From Antrihabitans auranticaus (GTDB lineage: Bacteria; Actinomycetota; Actinomycetes; Mycobacteriales; Mycobacteriaceae): a stretch of 58,744 nt of DNA. This document shows positions 37,136 through 52,707 of the stretch, piece after piece; the stretch's first letter is position 1, and every line of letters begins with the position of its first letter. The notes under the pieces are model-generated. The model made no database searches and was not told where the DNA came from. It worked only from the letters and a program-made list of their open reading frames with translations. The position numbers and the translations under genes are program-made. The stretch is taken from NCBI RefSeq assembly GCF_016481275.1, contig NZ_JAEMNW010000013.1, positions 1-58,744 of the forward strand, given 5' to 3'.

Positions 37136-38458
37136 CTAGCGGTCGGTGGGCGACACCGGCGGCGGCGCGGCACCGAACAGTGTCGATCCCCAATATGCGC
37201 CATCGTGTAGACCGGGTGGCACCACGAACACGGCCGACGCGACGTGCTGGATGTACTCGTTCAACGAGTCCGACCGCGCCAACTGCAACTGCATGGGCAC
37301 GAACTGCTCCAGCGGATTCCGGCAGAACGCAATGAAGAACAACCCCGCATCGAGGTGCCCGAAACCGTCGGATCCATCGGTGAAGTTGTAGCCCCGGCGC
37401 AACAGCTTTATCCCGTTCAACGACTCGTGCGACGCCAACCGAATATGGGCATCCTTCGCCACGATCGGACCGCCCGGCCCCTGCGACTGCAGGTCCACGA
37501 CATCGAACTCGTCCGCGCCGCCGAACGGTGCACCGTTGCCCTTGAAGCGCCCGATGACCCGTTCCTGCTCGTTGAGGGTCGTCCGGTCCCACGATTCGAT
37601 CAGCATCCGGATCCGCCGCGTCACCATATAGGTCCCACCGGCAAGCCACTCCTGGTCGTCGGCAGGATCGACCCACACGAACTGGTCGACCGCGACGTCG
37701 TCCTCGGCCTTGATGTTGTTGGTGCCGTCCTTGAAACCCATCAGGTTGCGCGGCGTCACCTGCGCTTGCGACGTCGACGACGTCCGGCCGAAACCCAGCT
37801 GCGACCACTTCACCGCGACCGTTCCGACACCCAGCCGGGCCAGGTTGCGGACCGCGTGCACCGCAACCTGCGGATCGTTCGAGCACGCCTGAATCGCGAT
37901 GTCGCCACCGCTGCGCGCCGGATCGAGGTTGTCGCCCGGGAAGTGCTGCAGATTGGCCAGCGCCACAGGCTTCTTCGAGTAGATGCCGAACCGGTCGTTC
38001 TCCGCGGTGCCGAACAGTGATGGACCGAACCCGATCGTCAACGTCAACTGACTGGGCGTCAGATCGAGCGCTTCGCCGGTATCGCTCGGCGGCGCGTACT
38101 GCGCACCGCCGAAAGCACCGTCGGGAAACGTCTCGGCACCGGCCGTCATCCGGGCCGCTACATCGGTCCAGGTTTGCAGCAACCGGACCAGGTCGTCGCG
38201 GGAATCGGTCGTCACGTCGAACGCGACGAAATGCATGCGATCCTGCGCCGGGGTGACGATGCCGGACTGGTGTTCGCCGTAGAACCCGACGACGTCGTCG
38301 AGGGTCGACTCATGCTCAGGCGCGGTTACCCGACCTGCGACCGCCCCGGCGCCGACCAATGCGGCGCCGGCTCCCAACGCGCCGAACAGCCCGCGGCGGC
38401 TGAGGCCGCCGCGGGTCGGCTCGGTCGTTTCTTCGGTACTACTTTCCTGCGATGGCAC
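37136..38458 (-). CDS. efeB: Dyp-type peroxidase / deferrochelatase EfeB
   Basis: A 440-residue haem peroxidase exported by the Tat pathway: twin-arginine motif LSRRGLFG followed by a hydrophobic stretch (ALGAGAALVGAGAVAG). The DyP signature GFKDGT (GxxDG) is present, and the proximal haem His lies in the HIRLASHE region. In the Efe system this protein oxidises Fe(II) or extracts iron from haem outside the membrane. GTG at 38458 starts it, inside the last codons of efeO (20-bp overlap). Last gene of efeUOB. Confidence 0.92.
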   Translation of the reverse strand: MPSQESSTEETTEPTRGGLSRRGLFGALGAGAALVGAGAVAGRVTAPEHESTLDDVVGFYGEHQSGIVTPAQDRMHFVAFDVTTDSRDDLVRLLQTWTDVAARMTAGAETFPDGAFGGAQYAPPSDTGEALDLTPSQLTLTIGFGPSLFGTAENDRFGIYSKKPVALANLQHFPGDNLDPARSGGDIAIQACSNDPQVAVHAVRNLARLGVGTVAVKWSQLGFGRTSSTSQAQVTPRNLMGFKDGTNNIKAEDDVAVDQFVWVDPADDQEWLAGGTYMVTRRIRMLIESWDRTTLNEQERVIGRFKGNGAPFGGADEFDVVDLQSQGPGGPIVAKDAHIRLASHESLNGIKLLRRGYNFTDGSDGFGHLDAGLFFIAFCRNPLEQFVPMQLQLARSDSLNEYIQHVASAVFVVPPGLHDGAYWGSTLFGAAPPPVSPTDR

Positions 38459-39578
38459 CTTGCACCTGACTTACCTCGGCGAGGAGAGCGTCGATCTTCT
38501 TCGACAGCTCCTGCCGCTGGGGTTCGGTGACAGTGTCGTAGGACACGAACACGTCGCCGTTACGGTACTTTTCGAGCTCCACTTCGAGATCGGCAAAGCG
38601 CTCGTCGATCTTGGTGCCGAGCTCCGGATTCTTCTCGTCGAGAATCGGGCGGACCGCGGACACCGCCGCCTGAGACCCTTCGACGTTCGCCTTGAAGTCC
38701 CACAGGTCGGTATGCGAGAAGAAGTCTTCCTCACCGGTGATCTTGGTCCGCGCAACCTCCTCGAGCAGTTCGCTCGCGCCACCCGCGGTCTGGATCGGAT
38801 CGAACTCGAAGTCGGGCGCGTTCACTTCATCGGCGAGGTCCTGGACGTCGCGCGTCAACAGGTCCGCAATCTCGTTCGTGTCCGGCTGCAAGCCCTGTGC
38901 CCACAGGTCCTTCTCGAGCCTGTGGAAGCCGGTCCAGCGCTGCCCCGGCTCGACGTCGGGCTCACGCAGGTCGAGCAGTGGATCGAGGTCGCCGAAGCTC
39001 TCCGCGACCGGCTCGATCCGCTCGTAGTAGGTGCGCGCAATCGGGAACTGCGCCTTCGCTGCCTCGATATCGCCCGCCTTCACTGCGGCGACGAACACCC
39101 CGGTGGTGTCCTGCAATGCGACGATCTGGCTGAGCACGTACCGCTTGTAACCGGCCGACGCCTCGGCGAGCTGGCTGCCTTCCTCCGGCGCGGACTGAGC
39201 CTCACCGGTGACCTTGAAATCCTTCCGGATGCCGTCGCCGACCATGCCCGGCTTGCACGCGGTCTGGTAGGTGCCCGGATCGGGCAGCGACACGATCAGC
39301 TGACGGGTCAGCCCGGGACCGATGTTCTCGACCTCACCCATCACCCGGTCGCCCTCGGCGTAGACGTAGAACTCGGTCACCTTCGTGCCGTTGTTCGTCA
39401 CCTGGAAGGTGGAATTACCGGTCTCCGCCGAGTCGGTGGCGACGTCGCACGCGGAGTCGGTAGCGGTCACCTTGATGTCGCTCGCGCTCGACTCCGACTT
39501 CTCGGTACAGCCGGAAAGCGCAAGCGGGACGGCAGCAACGACGGCGAGCACGCAAGTCGATCTAGCGATAGAAGGCAA
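38439..39578 (-). CDS. efeO: Iron uptake lipoprotein EfeO (cupredoxin + M75 domain)
   Basis: A 379-residue exported protein. Signal peptide with lipobox LSGC, then a cupredoxin-like domain (VTATDSACDVA to about 125) and an M75 imelysin-like helical domain with the metal motif HxxE (GFHRLEKDLW). It captures ferrous or ferric iron for the EfeU permease. No ATG is available: the start is TTG at 39578, backed by GAAAGG seven bases upstream and by the immediate signal peptide (PSIARSTCVLAVV). The gap to efeU is 26 bp. Confidence 0.92.
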   Translation of the reverse strand: MPSIARSTCVLAVVAAVPLALSGCTEKSESSASDIKVTATDSACDVATDSAETGNSTFQVTNNGTKVTEFYVYAEGDRVMGEVENIGPGLTRQLIVSLPDPGTYQTACKPGMVGDGIRKDFKVTGEAQSAPEEGSQLAEASAGYKRYVLSQIVALQDTTGVFVAAVKAGDIEAAKAQFPIARTYYERIEPVAESFGDLDPLLDLREPDVEPGQRWTGFHRLEKDLWAQGLQPDTNEIADLLTRDVQDLADEVNAPDFEFDPIQTAGGASELLEEVARTKITGEEDFFSHTDLWDFKANVEGSQAAVSAVRPILDEKNPELGTKIDERFADLEVELEKYRNGDVFVSYDTVTEPQRQELSKKIDALLAEVSQVQGAIAGK

Positions 39579-39604
39579 TGTCGGGCCTTTCGAGTGACGG
39601 ATGG

Positions 39605-40498
39605 CTATGAGGATTCGAGCGCTGGTTGCGAAACCGGCGCAGCGACGGGCTTCGGCTTGGTGGGACGAAAGAACAGTGCGAGAACGACGACGACGTAGAG
39701 CACCCAGGCGACCACTTGTGCGACCGTCGGATCGGGCCGGAAGTTGAAGATTCCCGCCGCGACCGTTCCGTACCAACTCGACGCGTCGAACGATGCGGTG
39801 ATATCGAACGCCTTGTCGGACAGGCCCGGAAACACGCCACCGGTTTGCAGCGCGCGTATGCCGTAGGACAGGATCCCGGCCGCGACGACGATCAAGAACA
39901 CACCCGTGTACTTGAAGAACTTCGCGAAGTCGATCCGAATTGCCCCGAGGTACAACAACACCGAGAGCACGGCGGCCAGTGCGACACCGAGGAGCAGGCC
40001 GATCAACGGCCAACTGCTCCCGCCTGTGTTTTCGGCGTAGCCGACCATCAGCAGCGCCGTCTCGACACCTTCGCGCCCGACCGCGAAGAATGCGAGAGAC
40101 AGCACGGCGAGGGGGCCGACCGAGAGCGCCTTCTGCATGCCGGCACGCAGCTCACCGGAGATGGAACGGGCCGCAACCCGCATCCACAGCACCATCGCGC
40201 TCACGATCACAACCGCGACGAGCGACGCGATACCGGCGATTATTTCCGCCGTGAGACCGGTGACCGTGGACGTCCCGTAGTGGATCGCGAAGAAGATCGC
40301 CCCAACCATCGCGATCGCGCTGAACACGCCGAGCCACACCCATTTCAGGGCGTCACGACGATCCGATTTGATCAGGAACGCAACAAGGATCATTACGACG
40401 ATGCCGCATTCGAGCCCTTCGCGGACGCCGATGAGCCCACTCCCGAACAGTTGAGTGCCGATCGACGGCACGCCGGCATCGGCAGCGTGGTAGAGCAC
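39605..40498 (-). CDS. efeU: Iron permease EfeU (FTR1 family)
   Basis: A 297-residue multi-pass membrane protein of the Ftr1/EfeU family. Both REGxE iron-binding motifs are present: REGLE in the first helix (LIGVREGLECGIVV) and REGVE in the fourth (VGREGVETALL). Seven hydrophobic segments are visible. The start is GTG at 40498 with GGGAGAA seven bases before it; the open frame to 40534 is rejected on that basis. First gene of efeUOB, a ferrous-iron importer that works under acidic or low-iron conditions. Confidence 0.93.
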   Translation of the reverse strand: MLYHAADAGVPSIGTQLFGSGLIGVREGLECGIVVMILVAFLIKSDRRDALKWVWLGVFSAIAMVGAIFFAIHYGTSTVTGLTAEIIAGIASLVAVVIVSAMVLWMRVAARSISGELRAGMQKALSVGPLAVLSLAFFAVGREGVETALLMVGYAENTGGSSWPLIGLLLGVALAAVLSVLLYLGAIRIDFAKFFKYTGVFLIVVAAGILSYGIRALQTGGVFPGLSDKAFDITASFDASSWYGTVAAGIFNFRPDPTVAQVVAWVLYVVVVLALFFRPTKPKPVAAPVSQPALESS

Positions 40499-40525
40499 TC
40501 GTAAATTCTCCCTCAGTGAGGAACG

Positions 40526-40546
40526 CCTTACCATAGCTAGGCAAGG
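40526..40546. promoter_or_regulatory. Possible iron-box upstream of efeU
   Basis: CCTTACCATAGCTAGGCAAGG, an imperfect 21-bp inverted repeat with a TAGCTA centre, 28 bp before the efeU start. It partly matches the DtxR/IdeR pattern (TTA...TAG centre), as expected for an iron-regulated operon, but the match is weak. Confidence 0.35.
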
Positions 40547-44498: not shown

Positions 44499-44883
44499 GA
44501 TCGACCCACGAGTCGACACCTACATCGACGCACTTCCCGACTGGCAGCGAGACATCTGCCGTGAGGTTCGCGAACTCGTCCACGCAGCGGACCCCGAGGT
44601 CGTGGAGACGATCAAGCGAACTGTCCAGCCCTATTTCGTTCTACAGGGCAATATCTGCGCACTGCTGGCCGCGAAGGACCACGTGAACGTCTTTCTGTAC
44701 GACGGCGGCATCGTGCCCGATCCCGAACACATCATCACGGCGGGCCACGACAACAAGACAGCTCGCACGGTCGCCTTCCGTAGGGACGAGCCGATAAACG
44801 CGCCGGCGCTGACCGCGATGTTGCGGCAGATCATCGCGAACAACCGAGCGGGCGGCTGGCGAAAGTTAAAGCGCGACCTGTGA
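44488..44883 (+). CDS. DUF1801 domain protein
   Basis: A 131-residue protein of the YdhG/DUF1801 type: YIDALPDWQRDICREVRELVHAADPEVVETIKRTVQPYF, then HVNVFLYDGGIV, and a Lys/Arg-rich end. Function unknown. ATG 44488 is preferred over 44479 because AAGGTGG is properly spaced only from it; it overlaps the patatin stop by 11 bp. The 3' end overlaps the convergent SDR gene by 18 bp. Confidence 0.8.
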   Translation: MPYEIDPRVDTYIDALPDWQRDICREVRELVHAADPEVVETIKRTVQPYFVLQGNICALLAAKDHVNVFLYDGGIVPDPEHIITAGHDNKTARTVAFRRDEPINAPALTAMLRQIIANNRAGGWRKLKRDL

Positions 44884-45774
44884 TCTGCGCGCTTCCACCC
44901 GGTGGACGAGCGTCCTGACCTTCTCGTCGTCCGCCAGCTGCCGGTCCAGGACGATGTTGATCGCGCCGCGCAGCAACGAGTATGGTTCCCAGACGCTCGG
45001 TGCAATCGTGCGCGCCGACCGGTTCGCGATACCGTCGGCGATAGTCGACGCAGCCTCGTTCGCGGTGATGCGCTTGCTCAGCGGCCAGGGCAGCATCTCG
45101 CCGACTTCTCTACCCATGTCGTCCTCGTCGAGCATGTCGTGCGTCATCTTCGTTTCGACGATGCCGAAGTAGGCAACGCCGGCACTCGCACCGTGGGCGG
45201 CGAGTTCCACGCGCAGGGCGCGACCGAGCTGTTCCACGCCGGCTTTGCTCACCATGTACGGCGACCCACCCATTCCGGGAGCGAAAGCGGCACACGACGA
45301 CACGACGACGACGTGCCCCTTCGCCGCGACGACGTCGTCGAGCGCTGGGTGGACGGTGTTGAAGACACCGGTCAGATTGACTCCGATCACCCGGTCGAAG
45401 TCTGCAGGGTCCATGGTCCGTACGGTCGCCGGTTCCGGAGTGACGCCGGCGTTGGCGACAACGACGTCGAGGTGCCCGAACTTGTTGCGCACGTATGCAA
45501 CTGCGTCGCGCATCGCCTCCCGATCGGTAACGTTCGCCTGCACGGCGTACACCCGCTCACCAAGTGCGTCGGCAGCGGCGGTCACCGTGTCTTCGTCGAT
45601 GTCGACCAGCACCACGATGGCACCGCGAGACTGCAGAATCTCGCCGAGTGCAAGACCTATCCCCTGCCCACCACCGGTGATGAGCACGACCTTGCCGTCG
45701 ACATCCAAGCTCGCGTTGGACCTCAGGGCTTTGGGTACCGCCGCGAAAACGCGGGCGAGCGATGTCAGGTTCAT
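44866..45774 (-). CDS. SDR family oxidoreductase of the monooxygenase operon
   Basis: A 302-residue short-chain dehydrogenase with an N-terminal helix (residues 1-25) before the fold. Cofactor motif TGGGQGIG at 33-40, NAGVT, catalytic Ser in VVVSSCAAF and YMVSKAG as YxxxK. The C-terminal part (PWPLSKRITANEAAS...) is longer than in classical SDRs and resembles those found beside FMO genes (for example SadH next to MymA in M. tuberculosis). Expected role: oxidise an alcohol to the ketone or aldehyde used by the neighbouring monooxygenase, or the reverse. Last gene of the operon; ATGA overlap with the FMO gene. Confidence 0.87.
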   Translation of the reverse strand: MNLTSLARVFAAVPKALRSNASLDVDGKVVLITGGGQGIGLALGEILQSRGAIVVLVDIDEDTVTAAADALGERVYAVQANVTDREAMRDAVAYVRNKFGHLDVVVANAGVTPEPATVRTMDPADFDRVIGVNLTGVFNTVHPALDDVVAAKGHVVVVSSCAAFAPGMGGSPYMVSKAGVEQLGRALRVELAAHGASAGVAYFGIVETKMTHDMLDEDDMGREVGEMLPWPLSKRITANEAASTIADGIANRSARTIAPSVWEPYSLLRGAINIVLDRQLADDEKVRTLVHRVEARRSQVAL

Positions 45775-47231
45775 CGCGTGCTCATTTCATAGGATTCGGA
45801 GTCGAACTCTGCGGTCCGTCGTTTGTACTCGAAACTCCAGTTCGGGTACAGCCCGGCGTTGTGTTTGCCGTCCGGTGTTTGGTAGTAGCTGCGGCAGCCG
45901 CCGGTGACCCACGTCGAATCCCTGCTGCGCTCGGCGACATCGGCAAGAAACGCCTCCTGGACGTCGGCGCGTACGTCGACTCGCCGTATGTTCCTGTCCC
46001 GCATGGTTTTCAGCGCACCCACGATATAGCCGACCTGCGCTTCGATCATGAAGATGGCGGACTGATTACCCGCTGCACCGAACGGACCGAGCGTGCTGAA
46101 GAAGTTCGGGAATCCGGCGTTCGCCGCGCCGAGATAGCTCTGCGGTCGGACGCGGTACTTCTCGCCGATCGATTCGCCGTCGGCCCCGAAGACGCGGTCG
46201 AATATCTGCGGCGGCATGCCGAAACCGGTGCCCCAGATGATCGTGTCGACCGGATGCTCCGTGCCGTCGTTCGTGACGATCGATCGCTCGCGAATCTCTG
46301 CGATTCCAGCGGTCACGACCTCGACGTTCGGTTGCGCCAACGCCGGGAAGTAGGCGTCGGAGAAGATTGCGCGCTTGCACCCGATCACGTAGCCGGGTGT
46401 CAGCTTTCGGCGGAGTTCGGGGTCGCGAACCTGACGCAGCAGTTGCAAGCGGCCCATCAGTTCGAACGGGTGGCGGAAACGCTTGTCGACGAATCCCACT
46501 AGGCCGAAGCCTTCGATCCCGGTGTAGTAGGCCCCTCTGATTGCCTTGCCCACCAGCGGAATCCGTTTGAGCAACGCCCGTTCGACGGCGAGCGTCCCGC
46601 GGTCCATACGCGGCACGATCCAGGGCGCCGAGCGCTGAAACACCGTGAGCTGCCCGACCTTCGGCTGGATCTCCGGAATGAACTGCACCGCCGATGCGCC
46701 GGTTCCGATCACCGCGACGCGTTCCCCCGTCAGGTCGTGCTCGTGATCCCAATGCAGCGAATGGAACTGAGCTCCAGCGAAGTTCTCGATCCCGGCAAGC
46801 TTGGGAATCTGGCCCTCGGAGAACGGACCGATTGCAGAGACGAGTACGTCGGCGGTGTACGCGCCTTGCGATGTCGAGATTCGCCACACGCTCTCGGTCT
46901 CGTCCCAGCTAGCTTCACGCAAGTCGGTGTTGTATCGAAAGCGTTGCACAACATCGAATTTCGCGGCGACTGATTGGAGGTAGGCCAAGATCTCGGGCTG
47001 GGTGCCATAGGTGCGGGTCCAGTCGGGGTTCGGCGCAAACGAGTAGCAGTACAGGGGTGACGGTACGTCGCATGCGCAGCCCGGATAGGTGTTCGCGCGC
47101 CACGTTCCGCCGAGGTCATCGGCACGTTCGAGGACAACGAAATCGTCGAAGCCTGCGTCTTGCAACTTGACTGCCATCGCAATGCCGGCAAAACCTGCAC
47201 CGACGACGACAACACGGAAATGTTCGGTCAT
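45771..47231 (-). CDS. Flavin-containing monooxygenase / Baeyer-Villiger type
   Basis: A 486-residue NADPH-dependent flavoprotein monooxygenase. FAD motif GAGFAG near residue 11, then GGTWRANTYPGCACDVPS, the BVMO-like fingerprint FAGAQFHSLHWDHE (F, H, W, D positions kept), and NADPH motif GTGASA. The C-terminal SYYQTPDGKHNAGLYPNWSFEY is typical of 4-hydroxyacetophenone/cyclohexanone-type enzymes. It oxidises a ketone to an ester or a soft nucleophile. Third gene of a minus-strand operon: 12 bp after the reductase gene and 4-bp overlap with the SDR. Confidence 0.9.
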   Translation of the reverse strand: MTEHFRVVVVGAGFAGIAMAVKLQDAGFDDFVVLERADDLGGTWRANTYPGCACDVPSPLYCYSFAPNPDWTRTYGTQPEILAYLQSVAAKFDVVQRFRYNTDLREASWDETESVWRISTSQGAYTADVLVSAIGPFSEGQIPKLAGIENFAGAQFHSLHWDHEHDLTGERVAVIGTGASAVQFIPEIQPKVGQLTVFQRSAPWIVPRMDRGTLAVERALLKRIPLVGKAIRGAYYTGIEGFGLVGFVDKRFRHPFELMGRLQLLRQVRDPELRRKLTPGYVIGCKRAIFSDAYFPALAQPNVEVVTAGIAEIRERSIVTNDGTEHPVDTIIWGTGFGMPPQIFDRVFGADGESIGEKYRVRPQSYLGAANAGFPNFFSTLGPFGAAGNQSAIFMIEAQVGYIVGALKTMRDRNIRRVDVRADVQEAFLADVAERSRDSTWVTGGCRSYYQTPDGKHNAGLYPNWSFEYKRRTAEFDSESYEMSTR

Positions 47232-47243
47232 GGTGTTTCTCTC

Positions 47244-48317
47244 TCAGAGATCTAGGACAAGCGGTCCGACAGATCTGGACACACAGATCAGCATCGAAGT
47301 TTCCCGGTCGGCGGCGCGCAGCGACTGGTCGCGATGTTCGACCTCGCCCGACAGCACGCGGACTTTGCAGGTGCCGCAAAAGCCTTGCTGGCACGAATAC
47401 TTCACGCCCGGCAGTGCACGCCGGATGGCCGACAGCGCGGATTCGTCGGACGCCACCGGGATCGTGATCCCGGTGCGTTGCAGCGTCACATCGAACGGCT
47501 TTCCGTCCTTGACGGGCAATGCCGAGAATCGCTCGGTGTGCAGTGACGCGGTGGGGTTTTCAGCCGTCAACAACGCGCGCGCCGGTTCCATCAATGGTGG
47601 CGGCCCGCAGATGTATACCGCAGTGCCCGGCTTGGCCGCCGAGACGATCGACGCGATATTCGGCATTCCGAATCGGTCGTCGGGCCGTATGTCCAGCACA
47701 CCTCCCCCGCGCGTTGCGAGTTCGTCACGAAACGGCATGGTCGCCAAGCTACGTCCGAGATACACCAGACGCCAGGGCTTTCCACCGCGCTCCGCCGCGT
47801 GCACCATCGGGAAAATCGGCGTGATGCCGATCCCGCCCGCGACGAAAAGGTACGACGGTGCATCGATCAGCTGGAATGCGTTGCGGGGTCCGCGGACGTG
47901 AATCGTGTTGCCTGCGCGCAATTTCTCGTGCACCTCGCGTGAGCCGCCACCGCCGTCGCGTATGTGCCTGACAGCGATTCGGTACGAGCTGCGGTCGGCC
48001 GGGTCGCCGCAGAGTGAGTATTGGCGTTGCTTCCCCGATGGCAGAAAGACATCGAGGTGCGCCCCGGGCAGCCAACTCGGCAGCGGTGCGCCGTTCGGGT
48101 CTTTCAGCGTGAGGCTGACGACGTCGTCGGCCTCGACCTGCACGAGGTCGATGGTCAGCTTCATGTCGAAGCCACTGCGCCGCACAGGATTCGAACGTGA
48201 GAGCAAGGGCGCAGTTCTACCGGAAATGAACAGCCGCTTGTAGGCGTCGAATACGGATCCGATGACGTGCAGACCCGCGGACGGCGTGAACTCACGCTCT
48301 GTTGCGGCGGTCACCAT
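47244..48317 (-). CDS. PDR/VanB-type oxidoreductase with C-terminal [2Fe-2S] ferredoxin
   Basis: A 357-residue electron-transfer protein. After an N-terminal stretch of about 50 residues comes a flavin domain (RQYSLCGDP), an NAD domain (VAGGIGITPIFPMVHAAE, VYICGPPPLM) and a plant-type ferredoxin domain with SCQQGFCGTCKVRVLSGE and the last Cys in LICVS. This class passes electrons from NAD(P)H to an oxygenase. In this operon the only partner that would need it is the ferritin-like PF10118 protein, since FMO/BVMO enzymes use NADPH directly. Its ATG overlaps the preceding stop by one base (TGATG). Confidence 0.92.
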   Translation of the reverse strand: MVTAATEREFTPSAGLHVIGSVFDAYKRLFISGRTAPLLSRSNPVRRSGFDMKLTIDLVQVEADDVVSLTLKDPNGAPLPSWLPGAHLDVFLPSGKQRQYSLCGDPADRSSYRIAVRHIRDGGGGSREVHEKLRAGNTIHVRGPRNAFQLIDAPSYLFVAGGIGITPIFPMVHAAERGGKPWRLVYLGRSLATMPFRDELATRGGGVLDIRPDDRFGMPNIASIVSAAKPGTAVYICGPPPLMEPARALLTAENPTASLHTERFSALPVKDGKPFDVTLQRTGITIPVASDESALSAIRRALPGVKYSCQQGFCGTCKVRVLSGEVEHRDQSLRAADRETSMLICVSRSVGPLVLDL

Positions 48318-49198
48318 CAGCTCTCACCTGCGCGAGCCGCCGGCGACTGCGCAAGGTAGCGGATGGCGTTGTCCATGGGTCCGAGCTGCGACGGATGAAA
48401 CCCCGGGCGCAAGTAGCGCGGGATCTCGGTGAAGAACGTCGTGAAGCTGGGGATCGTGCCCTGCCAGGTGGCCCGCGCGAACTGCCAGGGCCAGAATCGG
48501 CCCTTGGCCGCCGTCGGATCCTTGCGGAACAGATAGTCGGCGGAAACGATGAACAGCGCCAACAGCGCGGGGCTGGTGATCAGCGCTCCGCGAGCTTTAC
48601 GCGCGTAACTGCCGTCGACGTGCATGTACGCGTCGAAGACAACACTGCGGTGCTCGACCTCCTCCGCACCGTGCCACCGAATCAGGTCCAGCATCGCTGG
48701 ATGCATGCCCTTCTTCTCGAGCTGGTCCTGCGTGAGTAGCCATTCGCCGATAACGGCGGTGTAGTGCTCCATCGCCGCGAAGAGGGCGAGCCGCTCGCAC
48801 AGCCATTCGTGCTTCGCGCGGCCGCTCAGGCCGTGATCGCCAAGGATGCGGTCGACCAGCCAGGCCATCGCGTCCACCATCGGACCGACGTCGAGACCGA
48901 GTTTCTCGAGGTGGTTTCGAGCCAACTCGTGCGAACTCGCGTGCATCGCTTCTTGGCCGACGAAACCGGCAACCTCTTCGCGAAGCCGCTCGTCGTCGAT
49001 GAGCGGCAGTGCTTCGGCGAGGCAGTCTGCCATCGCGCGCTCACCTTCGGGCAACACCAAATGCATCACGTTGATGATGTGCGTGGCGAAAGGTTCGCCC
49101 GGAATGTAATGCATGGGAACGGAATCGAAATCGAAAGTGACGTTGCGCGCGTTGATCGCGTGCGCCTGATCGTCGTATTTGGCCTTTACTTCAGCCAC
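48317..49198 (-). CDS. PF10118 'metal-dependent hydrolase', ferritin-like di-iron protein
   Basis: A 293-residue, mostly helical protein. Two carboxylate-His motifs typical of a di-iron four-helix bundle are visible: ExxH in FVGQEAMHASSHEL (about residue 88) and ExxH in HGAEEVEHRSVVFDAY (about 180), with further Glu/His in FAAMEHYTAVIGEWLL. The family is named a predicted metal-dependent hydrolase, but the motifs are those of oxygenases and ferritins. First gene of the operon, immediately before the [2Fe-2S] reductase (1-bp overlap). I infer an oxygenase or desaturase acting on a lipid-like compound. Start ATG 49198. Confidence 0.8.
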   Translation of the reverse strand: MAEVKAKYDDQAHAINARNVTFDFDSVPMHYIPGEPFATHIINVMHLVLPEGERAMADCLAEALPLIDDERLREEVAGFVGQEAMHASSHELARNHLEKLGLDVGPMVDAMAWLVDRILGDHGLSGRAKHEWLCERLALFAAMEHYTAVIGEWLLTQDQLEKKGMHPAMLDLIRWHGAEEVEHRSVVFDAYMHVDGSYARKARGALITSPALLALFIVSADYLFRKDPTAAKGRFWPWQFARATWQGTIPSFTTFFTEIPRYLRPGFHPSQLGPMDNAIRYLAQSPAARAGES

Positions 49199-49238
49199 GG
49201 TTGCCTCCTCGTTGAAACGTGCCGTGACCCGAGACTAC

Positions 49239-49280
49239 ATGTTGACATCGCGTGCGGTCAACATCATGCGATGTCAACAT
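49239..49280. promoter_or_regulatory. Three-half-site palindromic operator (TetR type)
   Basis: ATGTTGAC at 49239 and its complement GTCAACAT at both 49257 and 49273. The outer arms extend to a perfect 13-bp inverted repeat, ATGTTGACATCGC (49239-49251) and its complement (49268-49280). It sits between the divergent di-iron operon and the tetR gene, so the adjacent TetR protein is the likely ligand. Confidence 0.75.
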
Positions 49281-49302
49281 CTGTGCGGGTAAGGTCGTGC
49301 AC

Positions 49303-49950
49303 GTGACGGCATCATCGGAAACGACCAAGCGCAAATGGAAAGGCGTCGAGCCAGAAGATCGCGCCGCGGCACGCCGAGCCCAGTTGATCGAGGCATGCAC
49401 AGACCTCATGGGCACTGTCGGCGTCGCCGAAATTTCGATGCGCGGAGTATGCCGCGAGGCCGGACTCACCGAGCGATACTTCTACGAGAGCTTCTCGAAC
49501 CTCGACGAACTACTGCTCACAGCGCTGGAGACGGTGGTACTCGAGGCTCGTGACCATATTCTGGCGGCGGTCGCGACAGCGCCAGAAACACGACCGGAAC
49601 TGGTCCGGCACGTCGTCGCCGCGTTCAGCGACCACTTGATCGAGGACGGGCGCCGAGGCCGGATCATGTTCGTCGAATCGCTCGCGACGCCGACCCTCGC
49701 AGACCGCGGCATTGCCCTGATCACGGAGTTCACCGGTCCGATCGCGGCCACGATCGCCGCCGACGGCTTCGCTACCACGCACCCGGACGATGTCGATCTG
49801 GACCTGAACTCGCTGGCAATCTTCGGCGCCATGGCATTTCAGTACCGCCCGTTCCTCGACGGGACATTGACTCTCGAACGTGTGCGCTTCGACGAGCACC
49901 TGGCGCAGGTCATCGAGCAGATCGCGGTGGTGCGGTCGGCCGGGCAGTAA
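49303..49950 (+). CDS. TetR/AcrR family transcriptional regulator
   Basis: A 215-residue regulator. The N-terminal helix-turn-helix is clear (LIEACTDLMGTVGVAEISMRGVCREAGLTERYFYESFSNLDELLLTAL, of which GVCREAGLTERYFYESF is the recognition part). The C-terminal ligand domain is helical and unassigned. GTG at 49303 with AAGG eight bases before it is chosen; the open frame starting at 49252 would begin inside the operator. Divergent from the di-iron/FMO operon, which it probably represses together with itself. Confidence 0.88.
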   Translation: MTASSETTKRKWKGVEPEDRAAARRAQLIEACTDLMGTVGVAEISMRGVCREAGLTERYFYESFSNLDELLLTALETVVLEARDHILAAVATAPETRPELVRHVVAAFSDHLIEDGRRGRIMFVESLATPTLADRGIALITEFTGPIAATIAADGFATTHPDDVDLDLNSLAIFGAMAFQYRPFLDGTLTLERVRFDEHLAQVIEQIAVVRSAGQ

Positions 49951-50106: not shown

Positions 50107-51099
50107 TCAGTCCGCAAACTGCTTGTCGACGAACGCCGCGAAGTCCACCTTGCCCGGGATCGCGTTGGCTTCGGTGAAGGCGTCGGCGATCTCCTGCTCG
50201 GACTCGATGATCTGGTCGTTGAGGACGGTCGGCTGCTTGATCGACCGGGTCCAGGTGACGCGTGAGGCGTCGAGGCTGATCGCGGTCAGTTCCGCGTACT
50301 TCGCCGACCACAACTCGAGGTTGTCCGAAGACCACTTGGTTGCAGCCGCGTACCTGGTGAAGAAGTCCTTGATCGCGGCGGCCTTGCCCGGATCCTCGAC
50401 GGACCCCGCGGACGCAACCCAGAAGTTGTAGCCGTTCGCGGCCTGGTCCGCGGAGGCGATCGACTTGGCGCCGACCTCCTGTTCGGCGATCGCGGTGTAT
50501 GGATCCCACACGGCCCAAGCATCCACCGCGCCGTCGCGGAACGAGGCGTACCCGTCGGCCGGTGCGAGGTAAACCGGTTCGACGTCGCTCAGCGAGAGCC
50601 CCGCCTTGTCCAGTTGGAGAAGGAGATTCGCGTTTGCCGAGCTACCCTTCGTGACCGCGACCTTCTTGCCCTTCAGGTCCGCGACCGACCGGATGGGCGA
50701 ATCCTTGCCGACCAGCAGCGCATCGCCCTTGCCTGTCGCTTCCAGCGCTCCGATGATCTTGATATCTGCATTGGCTGCGGCACCGAAGATCACTGGCGTA
50801 TTGCCGGTTTGAGCCAAGTCGATCCCGCCCGCGCTGGCCGCCTCCACCAGCGGCGGACCCGCCGTGAAGGTGGAGAACTCGAGCTTGTACGGCAGGTTGT
50901 CGAGCTGACCCGACGCCCGCAACAGAACCTCGATCGAAATCGCCTTCTGGTCACCGACTTTCAGGGTGACGGTCGACAGATCCACGGGTCCGTCGGACTT
51001 GGCCGACGGCGAATCGTCCGTGCCGCACGCGGTGAGAACAAGCGTTGCGACGGCAAGGACTGCGAGGCTCAACCTCGATCGTGACGAGCGGATTCTCAC
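50107..51099 (-). CDS. ABC transporter substrate-binding lipoprotein (SsuA/TauA-like)
   Basis: A 330-residue periplasmic-type binding protein anchored as a lipoprotein: signal peptide ending LVLTAC with Cys25. The SsuA/NMT1-like fold is shown by VGDQKAISIEVLLRASGQL, STFTAGPPLVEAASAGGIDLAQTGNTPVIFGAAANADIKIIG and LKGKKVAVTKGSSANANLLLQLDKAGL. It delivers an aliphatic sulfonate, taurine or similar small anion to the permease. The ATPase gene lies upstream, 33 bp away, in the order permease, ATPase, binding protein. Confidence 0.9.
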   Translation of the reverse strand: MRIRSSRSRLSLAVLAVATLVLTACGTDDSPSAKSDGPVDLSTVTLKVGDQKAISIEVLLRASGQLDNLPYKLEFSTFTAGPPLVEAASAGGIDLAQTGNTPVIFGAAANADIKIIGALEATGKGDALLVGKDSPIRSVADLKGKKVAVTKGSSANANLLLQLDKAGLSLSDVEPVYLAPADGYASFRDGAVDAWAVWDPYTAIAEQEVGAKSIASADQAANGYNFWVASAGSVEDPGKAAAIKDFFTRYAAATKWSSDNLELWSAKYAELTAISLDASRVTWTRSIKQPTVLNDQIIESEQEIADAFTEANAIPGKVDFAAFVDKQFAD

Positions 51100-51132
51100 G
51101 TTTTAGCTTTCTCTCGGTTCATCTCTGGGGTT

Positions 51133-51876
51133 CTACTTCTGAGTGGCCGGCTCGGATACGCCGAGCAGGTGCAGCAGTCTCGCCGCATATACGGCGCCAT
51201 CTGGCGACGAATGCGCGCGGGGGCGAGGCAGATCGATGACGACGTCTTCGACGATGCGGCCCCCGTCGAGTACGACGACGCGATCGGCAAGAGTCACCGC
51301 CTCGGCAACGTCGTGCGTGACGAGCAGAACGCCGAATCCACGTTCCGCGAACAGCCCGAGAAGCAGGTCGTGCATTGCGAGCCGGGTCAGCGCGTCGAGC
51401 GCCCCGAACGGCTCGTCGAGCAGCAACAACGTCGGTTCGGCGACCAGCGCACGGGCAAGTGCGGCCCGCTGGGCTTCACCGCCGGACAGCGTCAGCGGCC
51501 AACCGTCGGCCCGGCCTTCGAGCCCGACCTCCGCGAGCACGGCCCGCGCTTTCGCCTCCGTTGCCGCGCGATTACGTCGACTCGGACTGCCGAGCGCGAC
51601 ATTGCGAACCACCGACAACCACGGCACCAGACGCGGTTCTTGGAAGGCGAGGGTCGGATGCCCGTCGACCGATACACGCCCGCTGTCCGCTTTCGACAGA
51701 CCGGCCAGAATCCGAAGCAGCGTCGACTTGCCCGAGCCGCTACGCCCCACAAGGGCGACCACCTCGCCCCGGTTGATATCGAGGTCGATCCCGTCGAGCA
51801 CGACTCTGTCGCCGAAACTCTTCCCCAGCGCGGATATTCGCGCCGCAGCGGCGGGCTTGTGCAGTGTGGATGTCAT
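51133..51876 (-). CDS. ABC transporter ATP-binding protein (SsuB-like)
   Basis: A 247-residue ABC ATPase: Walker A GRSGSGKST, Q-loop FQEPRLVPWLSV, signature LSGGEAQRAALARALVAEP, Walker B LLLLDEPFGALD and the H-loop THDVAEAVTLADRV. The PRLVPWLSVVRNV stretch is typical of nitrate/sulfonate/taurine importers. Middle gene of the importer operon, 9 bp after the permease stop. Confidence 0.92.
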   Translation of the reverse strand: MTSTLHKPAAAARISALGKSFGDRVVLDGIDLDINRGEVVALVGRSGSGKSTLLRILAGLSKADSGRVSVDGHPTLAFQEPRLVPWLSVVRNVALGSPSRRNRAATEAKARAVLAEVGLEGRADGWPLTLSGGEAQRAALARALVAEPTLLLLDEPFGALDALTRLAMHDLLLGLFAERGFGVLLVTHDVAEAVTLADRVVVLDGGRIVEDVVIDLPRPRAHSSPDGAVYAARLLHLLGVSEPATQK

Positions 51877-51885
51877 GGTTCTCCT

Positions 51886-52707
51886 TCAGCGCGACGGAGT
51901 CGGTTGCCAACGCAGTGCCCGCGCCTCGAAGAAGCGCACGATGGAATCGGTGATCAGCCCGAGCAGGCTGTACAGCAGTAGGCCGAAGATCACGATGTCT
52001 GTCCGCAAGAACTCGCGAGCGTTGTTGACGATGAACCCGAGGCCGGCGCTGGCGTTGATCTGCTCGGCGACAACGAGTGAAAGCCATGCGATACCGAGGC
52101 TTTGGCGCACCCCGACGAGAATCTGAGGTAGCGCGCCCGGAATGACAAGTGTGCGAAGCCGCTCGATCCGCCCCAGTCGCAGCGCATCCCCGAGTTCGAG
52201 CAGTTTGGGGTCGAGGTGCCGGACACCGGCGTAGGTGTTGAGATACAGCGGAAAGAGCACACCGAGCGCAATCAGGTAGACCTTCGGTTCCTCGCCGATG
52301 CCGAACCAGATGATGAACAGGGGAATCAGCCCGAACAGCGGAATCGTCCGCAGCATCTGCAGCGGCGGATCGACAGTGTATTCACCGAACCGGCTTGTGC
52401 CCGCGAGAATTCCGAGCCCGATGCCCAACGCCGCACCCAGCAGGAATCCGAAAAGCGCACGCTCCCCCGAAACCCACAGGGCGTCGCCCAGCGCGCCCGA
52501 TTGATAGACCTCGAGCCCCGCTTCGAAAACCACTGACGGCGCCGGCAGCTTGCGTTCGGACACCAGCCCGAGCTGACTCGCCGCCTGCCACGCCACCAAC
52601 AGGCCGACCGGCACAAGCGCGCGCAGGACACCGGGCCGGCGCAGCAGCGGTGTCGAACGTTCGCGCCCAGGCAACGGTTTCGAGACGCGAGTGCTCTCGA
52701 CGGACAT
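51886..52707 (-). CDS. ABC transporter permease (SsuC-like)
   Basis: A 273-residue BPD-type permease with about six hydrophobic segments, from LRALVPVGLLVAWQAAS to the C-terminal IVIFGLLLYSLLGLITDSIV. The EAA-like loop is GDALRLGRIERLRTLVIPGALPQILVGVRQSLGIAWLSLVVAEQ. First gene of the SsuCBA-type operon. No FMNH2-dependent sulfonate monooxygenase (SsuD) lies next to it, so the substrate class rests on transporter similarity alone. Confidence 0.9.
   Translation of the reverse strand: MSVESTRVSKPLPGRERSTPLLRRPGVLRALVPVGLLVAWQAASQLGLVSERKLPAPSVVFEAGLEVYQSGALGDALWVSGERALFGFLLGAALGIGLGILAGTSRFGEYTVDPPLQMLRTIPLFGLIPLFIIWFGIGEEPKVYLIALGVLFPLYLNTYAGVRHLDPKLLELGDALRLGRIERLRTLVIPGALPQILVGVRQSLGIAWLSLVVAEQINASAGLGFIVNNAREFLRTDIVIFGLLLYSLLGLITDSIVRFFEARALRWQPTPSR

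Follow-up and report, generated by a model that had tools for sequence, protein, structure and literature searches.

A predicted two-component di-iron oxygenase, a PF10118 protein with its adjacent reductase, in an operon of Antrihabitans auranticaus

Four minus-strand genes in a 58,744-nucleotide stretch of Antrihabitans auranticaus DNA (contig NZ_JAEMNW010000013.1; the whole stretch is called the window below) provoked a question: what does a protein of family PF10118, annotated elsewhere as a metal-dependent hydrolase, do beside a reductase of the phthalate dioxygenase reductase (PDR)/VanB type, a type I Baeyer-Villiger monooxygenase (BVMO) and a short-chain dehydrogenase/reductase (SDR)? 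The answer that we favor, at a probability of roughly 0.7, is that the operon encodes a two-component di-iron oxygenase with an AurF-type center, together with follow-on enzymes of a hydroxylation, SDR and BVMO route. The gene order, the predicted fold, the conservation of the ligands and the linkage to the reductase were all established by computation.

From these we infer the identity of the metal, the electron transfer, the reaction and the substrate as follows. The PF10118 protein would be a ferritin-like four-helix enzyme that holds two irons with an AurF-type set of four Glu and three His and activates O2. Electrons from NAD(P)H would pass through the flavin and the [2Fe-2S] domain of the PDR/VanB-type protein to the di-iron center. 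The PF10118 protein would most likely hydroxylate an aliphatic or alicyclic compound, the SDR would turn the alcohol into a ketone, and oxygen insertion by the BVMO would then yield an ester or lactone, to be hydrolyzed elsewhere.

The operon and the predicted fold of its PF10118 protein

The order of the four genes is as follows:

48317-49198, minus strand: PF10118 protein, 293 amino acids, GTG start codon with AGGAGG upstream
47244-48317, minus strand: PDR/VanB-type reductase, 357 amino acids, the predicted electron donor to the PF10118 protein
45771-47231, minus strand: type I BVMO-like flavoprotein, 486 amino acids, with both BVMO fingerprints
44866-45774, minus strand: SDR of the PRK05872 subfamily, 302 amino acids (316 bits against a cut-off of 276), with an S-Y-K pattern

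The PF10118 and reductase genes overlap by 1 bp, the reductase and BVMO genes are separated by 12 bp, and the BVMO and SDR genes overlap by 4 bp; this is the four-gene operon of the initial annotation, with the same coordinates, overlaps and gap.

PF10118 was the sole Pfam match of the first operon protein at E <= 0.01 (E 1.8e-75). We therefore relied on structure as well. AlphaFold models were obtained for the window protein aligned with 70 of the 80 nearest loci (model 1; mean pLDDT, the predicted local distance difference test score, 89.1) and for a Streptomyces homologue aligned with 36 of them (model 2; 92.5), the 80 being the best of at least 593 relatives of the window's PF10118 protein. 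Both were compared by Foldseek with 350,542 PDB chains at E <= 10. Model 1 returned 243 matches, and the 50 of these that were listed were all R2lox, the R2 subunit of ribonucleotide reductase or AurF. With model 2 there were 363, and 49 of the 50 listed were ferritin-like: R2, R2lox, CmlI, methane and toluene monooxygenase hydroxylases, an aldehyde-deformylating protein and an unnamed ferritin-like protein; the remaining one was a respiratory-complex chain. For the viral models, the first ten structural matches were ribonucleotide reductases. The top matches had a Foldseek probability of 1.00. The predicted models appear to have the four-helix bundle of the ferritin/R2 class.

The initial annotation had pointed to two ExxH motifs as a ferritin-like di-iron site. 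These motifs, E83xxH86 and E180xxH183, belong to a putative ligand set (E53, E83, H86, E144, H176, E180 and H183) that follows the order E/ExxH/E/ExxH, with a carboxylate or an ExxH on each helix. Among 137 members, E53, E83, H86, H90, E144, H176, E179 and E180 were kept in 136 (the exception is a fragment with a gap), E182 and H183 in all 137, and H145 in 125; H90, E179 and E182 are thus invariant residues besides the putative ligands. Judged by helix register on the model, E53 and E83 are both 13 residues away from the turn that joins helices 1 and 2, and E144 and E180 are 12 and 13 residues away from the helix 3/4 connection. In the models, the residues are arranged as in a ferritin-like site. 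The ferritin-like models and the invariant Glu/His set hence agree with a predicted di-iron site, and the structure prediction that had been suggested as a check placed the residues level with one another in the helix hairpins, as far as register can tell.

The seventh putative ligand, a His four residues ahead of the last Glu (HxxxExxH), is the AurF-type feature. The longer pattern HxxEExxH occurred in 136/137 PF10118 sequences and in an open reading frame (ORF) of 25/25 AurF-family loci (21/25 when hand-cut ligand segments rather than whole ORFs were used). It was found in 0/10 R2lox segments, 0/11 R2 segments (labels assigned from PF00268 scores and motif spacing; 18 + 4 regions, L263 dropped) and 2/1470 control ORFs. 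We take the canonical six ligands of R2lox and R2, E/ExxH/E/ExxH in R2lox numbering, to be common to PF10118. The ligands named for AzoC in a model figure legend (E102, E137, H140, E198, H225, E229 and H232; PMC6783550) and those predicted for DnfA in an excerpt of PMC9478400 (E88, E123, H126, E182, H209, E213 and H216, there called identical to those of AurF and CmlI) have the same order as in PF10118 and similar spacing. The first two Glu are 30 residues apart in PF10118 vs. 35 in the AurF/CmlI type.

The other three proteins are of familiar kinds. In Pfam, the reductase matched Fer2, NAD_binding_1 and FAD_binding_6; it has RxYS and GGxGxT motifs and a C-terminal [2Fe-2S] cysteine pattern. 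Its domain order (flavin, NAD(P), C-terminal plant-type [2Fe-2S]) is that of the PDR/VanB type; among solved structures, it comes closest to P450-reductase fusions and to the phthalate dioxygenase reductase 2pia (E 1.5e-55). The Fer2 match and the cysteines uphold the earlier description of a VanB-type reductase with its own ferredoxin domain. The BVMO protein, FMO-like in Pfam and near cyclohexanone- and phenylacetone-type monooxygenases, has two Rossmann motifs and both type I fingerprints as defined in an excerpt of PMC9044951. The SDR protein matched adh_short.

Linkage to reductases and further partners

Is the reductase a regular neighbor of PF10118? In 79 of the 80 nearest loci, a reductase match followed PF10118 on the same strand at a distance of up to 2 kb; at the single exception, L064, the contig ends. 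The reductase was within 400 bp in 73 loci and 1-1.9 kb away in six Mycobacterium or Mycolicibacter loci, and in L108 the interval is filled by an alpha/beta-hydrolase-SDR fusion.

A set of 121 genomes, drawn evenly from the order, contained PF10118 in 30. Counting only the reductase matches listed, so that weaker reductases could escape the count, 34 of the 53 PF10118 matches that measure 700 nt or more, the window's among them, had a reductase downstream on the same strand, 33 of them within 1.5 kb and one at 1.95 kb. Among the best-scoring reductase homologues, 27/28 adjoined PF10118, vs. 35/150 among all matches listed.

We also compared 65 PF10118 loci with 40 control regions of the same genomes. 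The 65 comprise 52 of the 56 places outside the window's own genome, six added loci and seven own-genome regions; fragments (two of G036, one of G046, one of G121) were dropped, and the set leaves out the window itself and the genus places G001-G003. A PDR was near PF10118 in 36/65 loci vs. 0/40 controls, with PF10118 neighbors counted on the same strand and control neighbors on either. The corresponding counts were 15 vs. 1 for BVMO, 27 vs. 3 for SDR and 22 vs. 0 for alpha/beta hydrolase, the SDR and hydrolase seeds having been taken from PF10118 loci, which favors finding relatives there. The Fisher values of this comparison overstate independence because the loci come from related species. 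In 10/65 loci, PF10118 and a PDR were alone among the six gene types sought. The PaaE-like reductase of L016, counted and labelled as a PDR, belongs to the neighboring AurF operon L272, and the reductase count is 37/65 without it.

In a tree of 73 rows, 38 of the 39 reductase-labelled rows fell in one 41-row clade (support 95/98); the 39th is L016, a cross-match of another reductase that lies outside. The three rows of the clade without the label are L123, L146 and L157. The proposal of the initial annotation that the reductase feeds the di-iron protein thus finds a predicted partner link in 79 of the 80 nearest loci and in the comparison with controls.

The wider partners are looser. A BVMO homologue lay within 6 kb in 26/80 nearest loci, and most Streptomyces loci had the reductase only, of four gene types sought. 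Aldehyde dehydrogenase directly precedes the BVMO in L046; acyl-CoA synthetase-type genes occur in L044, L046 and L052, the last two of which also contain acyl-CoA dehydrogenase genes. In Rhodococcus, the plasmid-borne operon has genes for aldehyde dehydrogenase and fatty-acid CoA ligase in its vicinity. The recurrent SDR, BVMO and alpha/beta hydrolase partners would fit a sequence of hydroxylation, ketone, ester and hydrolysis; no esterase gene is part of the window operon. The proposed chain from hydroxylation through ketone to ester is plausible.

The window's genome offers a parallel. It holds nine PF10118 matches and ten AurF-family matches. One of its regions, L010, contains two PF10118 genes, a BVMO, an SDR, an alpha/beta hydrolase and a PaaE-like reductase. 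A BVMO stands beside AurF-family genes in four of the nine AurF-family regions fetched (listed here) and was not seen in the other five:

L271, 6278-11772, one strand: AurF-family protein(s), BVMO, SDR and PaaE-like [2Fe-2S] reductase
L272, 6991-11411, one strand: AurF-family protein(s), BVMO, SDR and PaaE-like [2Fe-2S] reductase
L270, 5855-8091, one strand: AurF and BVMO
L273, 6088-8607, divergent: AurF and BVMO

"PaaE-like" denotes a best NCBIfam match to TIGR02160 at 227-241 bits, below the cut-off of 420.8. Given the gene content of L271 and L272, an experimentally known di-iron family fills the place of PF10118 in otherwise equivalent operons; by analogy with that family, the di-iron function of these particular members is predicted.

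Some relatives were observed in passing. A truncated PF10118 gene (G000:C1:1523063-1523329, in L009 and L014), with the last 90 profile positions only, lies within 32 kb of two complete ones. The L053 contig, which is on record as part of a Bifidobacterium breve metagenome bin and may have been wrongly binned, gave matches to all four operon genes in order, the PF10118 protein being 57% identical. A BVMO-type gene directly adjoins a ribonucleotide reductase R2 gene at G010:C1:2098473-2100943, and likewise in G055, G091 and G098.

The regulator and neighboring genes

Two further features stand upstream of the operon:

49252-49950, plus strand: divergent TetR-family regulator gene (TetR_N 23.5 bits, just below the Pfam cut-off of 24)
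49239-49280, no strand: palindromic probable operator, ATGTTGACATCGCGTG...CATGCGATGTCAACAT, between the TetR gene and the operon

The inverted repeat at 49239-49280 is 16 nt with 94% complementarity. Because the first-start position of the TetR gene, 49252, falls within it, the true start is probably near the in-frame GTG codons at 49297/49303. A TetR repressor bound to this palindrome would control the operon, as the initial annotation had supposed in placing the operon under a TetR; the divergent gene and the palindrome are indeed there. Among eight loci checked, TGTTGACATC palindromes recurred upstream at three from Nocardia (L038, L040 and L041), which have a homologue of the window's TetR (53-58% identical). 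None was found upstream at L042, L044, L046, L048 or L052; the first four of these had no match to the window's TetR, and the match in L052 was 30% identical.

Elsewhere in the window, three minus-strand genes about 4 kb from the operon (37136-40534) encode a Dyp-type peroxidase, an imelysin/cupredoxin protein and an FTR1 iron permease; they make up an EfeUOB-like iron uptake locus. Positions 50107-52707 hold a sulfonate-type ABC transporter with an SsuA-family binding protein; its ATP-binding and permease genes were read from ORF translations only.

Competing explanations and implications

Several results weigh against an oxygenase fed by the adjacent reductase. The best Foldseek E-values were 0.012 and 0.018, with TM scores of about 0.5; since no match reached E <= 0.001, the ferritin-like claim rests on the consistency of the matches. 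The R2 profile alignment was weak (p 0.015, probability 3%, 127 columns), with E83, H86, E144, E180 and H183 in register, and profile alignment of PF10118 with AurF or R2lox was not significant; sequence profiles do not prove common descent with R2, AurF or R2lox. No reductase was nearby in 27/65 PF10118 loci (28 if L016 is set aside), and 18/65 lacked every partner type. PF10118 clades outside the 41-row clade do not show the PDR link, and neither do the four proteobacterial members examined, from Acinetobacter, Pseudoalteromonas and Burkholderia plasmids (74 plasmid records matched), the Burkholderia member having an alpha/beta hydrolase and an SDR. BVMO and SDR are optional, not constant, partners; BVMO genes are common (13 matches in the window's own genome at E <= 1e-60), and the control region L194 also has a BVMO beside an SDR. 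According to an excerpt of PMC9478400, DnfA did not need the reductase DnfB in vitro. Finally, three loci (L145, L146 and L157) have a Rieske-like ORF at a distance of 2-4 kb from PF10118.

With respect to other possible users of the reductase, no Rieske or P450 motif was found in window ORFs of at least 200 codons, and a Rieske or P450 oxygenase as its partner was rejected on this and the following counts. Near PF10118, the Rieske-like pattern occurred in 5/65 loci vs. 1/40 controls and the P450 pattern in 2/65 vs. 2/40; the 80 nearest loci had the former in 3 and the latter in 0. The Rieske-like patterns of L144 and L184 look like chance, and those of L145, L146 and L157 look real. The latter three loci are related, and each has PF10118, a BVMO and an alpha/beta hydrolase; L146 and L157 have no PDR reductase within survey distance.

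How does the PF10118 protein compare with known di-iron enzymes? Its best structural matches, R2lox and R2 (PF00268), lacked HxxEExxH in the segments tested, and many PF10118 genes have an adjacent reductase, unlike R2 and R2lox. Membership in PF00268 was rejected (no Pfam match; R2 profile probability 3%), as was membership in PF11583, the AurF family (no Pfam match at E <= 0.01; profile comparison not significant). In methane monooxygenase, toluene 4-monooxygenase and PaaABCE, a ferritin-like di-iron hydroxylase is fed by a flavin/[2Fe-2S] reductase, and hydroxylases of the first two are among the matches of model 2. As far as the operon shows, PF10118 differs from these soluble di-iron monooxygenases in being a single hydroxylase-like protein of about 290 amino acids; no further hydroxylase subunit or effector protein is among the four operon genes, the only genes searched for one. 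An excerpt of PMC10867098 reports R2lox, the nearest structural relative, as an alkane monooxygenase, which is compatible with our reading and is not evidence for PF10118. In Mycobacterium tuberculosis, the mymA operon, which is reported to be linked to lipid metabolism, encodes the type I BVMO MymA. A type I BVMO is thus common to that operon and the window operon. The mymA operon has SDR-type genes as well; it is not known to have PF10118 or a PDR reductase.

The AurF/CmlI-type N-oxygenases come closest in their ligands: they share with PF10118 the ferritin-like fold class, the order of three His and four carboxylates, and HxxEExxH; H90 is an extra invariant His of PF10118. The PF10118 protein might then oxidize an amine or hydroxylamine, with the flavin monooxygenase and SDR acting on the same nitrogen compound or being unrelated. 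The DnfA/DnfB gene cluster, in which (according to the same excerpt of PMC9478400) an AurF-type protein beside an FAD/NAD/[2Fe-2S] reductase acts on nitrogen, would be a precedent for the gene pair. We consider this improbable. By family, the four operon genes include nothing related to amines, and the context points to carbon chemistry: the neighbors are the carbon-oxidation enzymes SDR, alpha/beta hydrolase and BVMO, joined in some places by aldehyde dehydrogenase, acyl-CoA synthetase or acyl-CoA dehydrogenase. Moreover, AurF-family genes of the window's genome also adjoin BVMOs, so N-oxygenation does not necessarily follow from the ligand set. A reading of the protein as a di-iron enzyme that the reductase supplies for desaturation (acyl-ACP desaturase-like) or for oxidative carbon-carbon cleavage (aldehyde-deformylating-like), instead of hydroxylation, is likewise unlikely. 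The fold class includes such enzymes, an aldehyde-deformylating protein is among the matches of model 2, and several loci have genes for aldehyde dehydrogenase and acyl-CoA synthetase nearby, but SDR and BVMO partners would better suit a route from alcohol to ketone to ester. The family name in Pfam and in annotated plasmid records, and the 27 loci without a reductase, would fit a di-metal hydrolase, with the reductase serving another oxygenase in trans. That the annotation is correct in this sense strikes us as very improbable, in view of the predicted ferritin-like fold with AurF-type ligands, the clade-wide reductase link (including the loci where PF10118 and PDR stand alone) and the lack of Rieske or P450 motifs in the window.

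Taken together, the fold, the invariant ligands, the reductase linkage and the AurF-family operons argue that PF10118 proteins, or at least those of one large clade, most likely form a family of di-iron oxygenases supplied by a reductase, as judged from models and sequence comparison. The suggestion that PF10118 as such is an oxygenase family therefore stands in part: the fold and ligands are predicted as it requires, and the neighborhood survey yields a strong link in one large clade, but that link does not extend across the whole family. No title or abstract found in the open PMC literature presents PF10118, COG3687 or Metal_hydrol as an oxygenase. Excerpts of two papers touch on the subject: PF10118 is named among two candidate-protease groups correlated with a lanthipeptide precursor (PMC8960859), and a metal-dependent hydrolase gene of unstated family adjoins propane monooxygenase genes (PMC4428276).

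A broader proposal, to which we give somewhat less than even odds, is that PF10118 proteins are unrecognized NAD(P)H-dependent two-component di-iron hydroxylases, interchangeable with AurF-family proteins as first enzymes of a modular skeleton-cutting pathway (hydroxylation, SDR oxidation, Baeyer-Villiger insertion and ester hydrolysis), and that many "metal-dependent hydrolase" genes are oxygenases. PF10118 matches number up to eleven per genome in the window's genus and occur in Streptomyces, Acinetobacter and Burkholderia records. If our reading is true, the "predicted metal-dependent hydrolase" family would be renamed as O2-activating di-iron enzymes, AurF-type iron chemistry would be combined with a reductase encoded alongside and with a Baeyer-Villiger step, and degradation or lipid-modification pathways of Nocardia, Mycobacterium and Streptomyces relatives would become directly testable.

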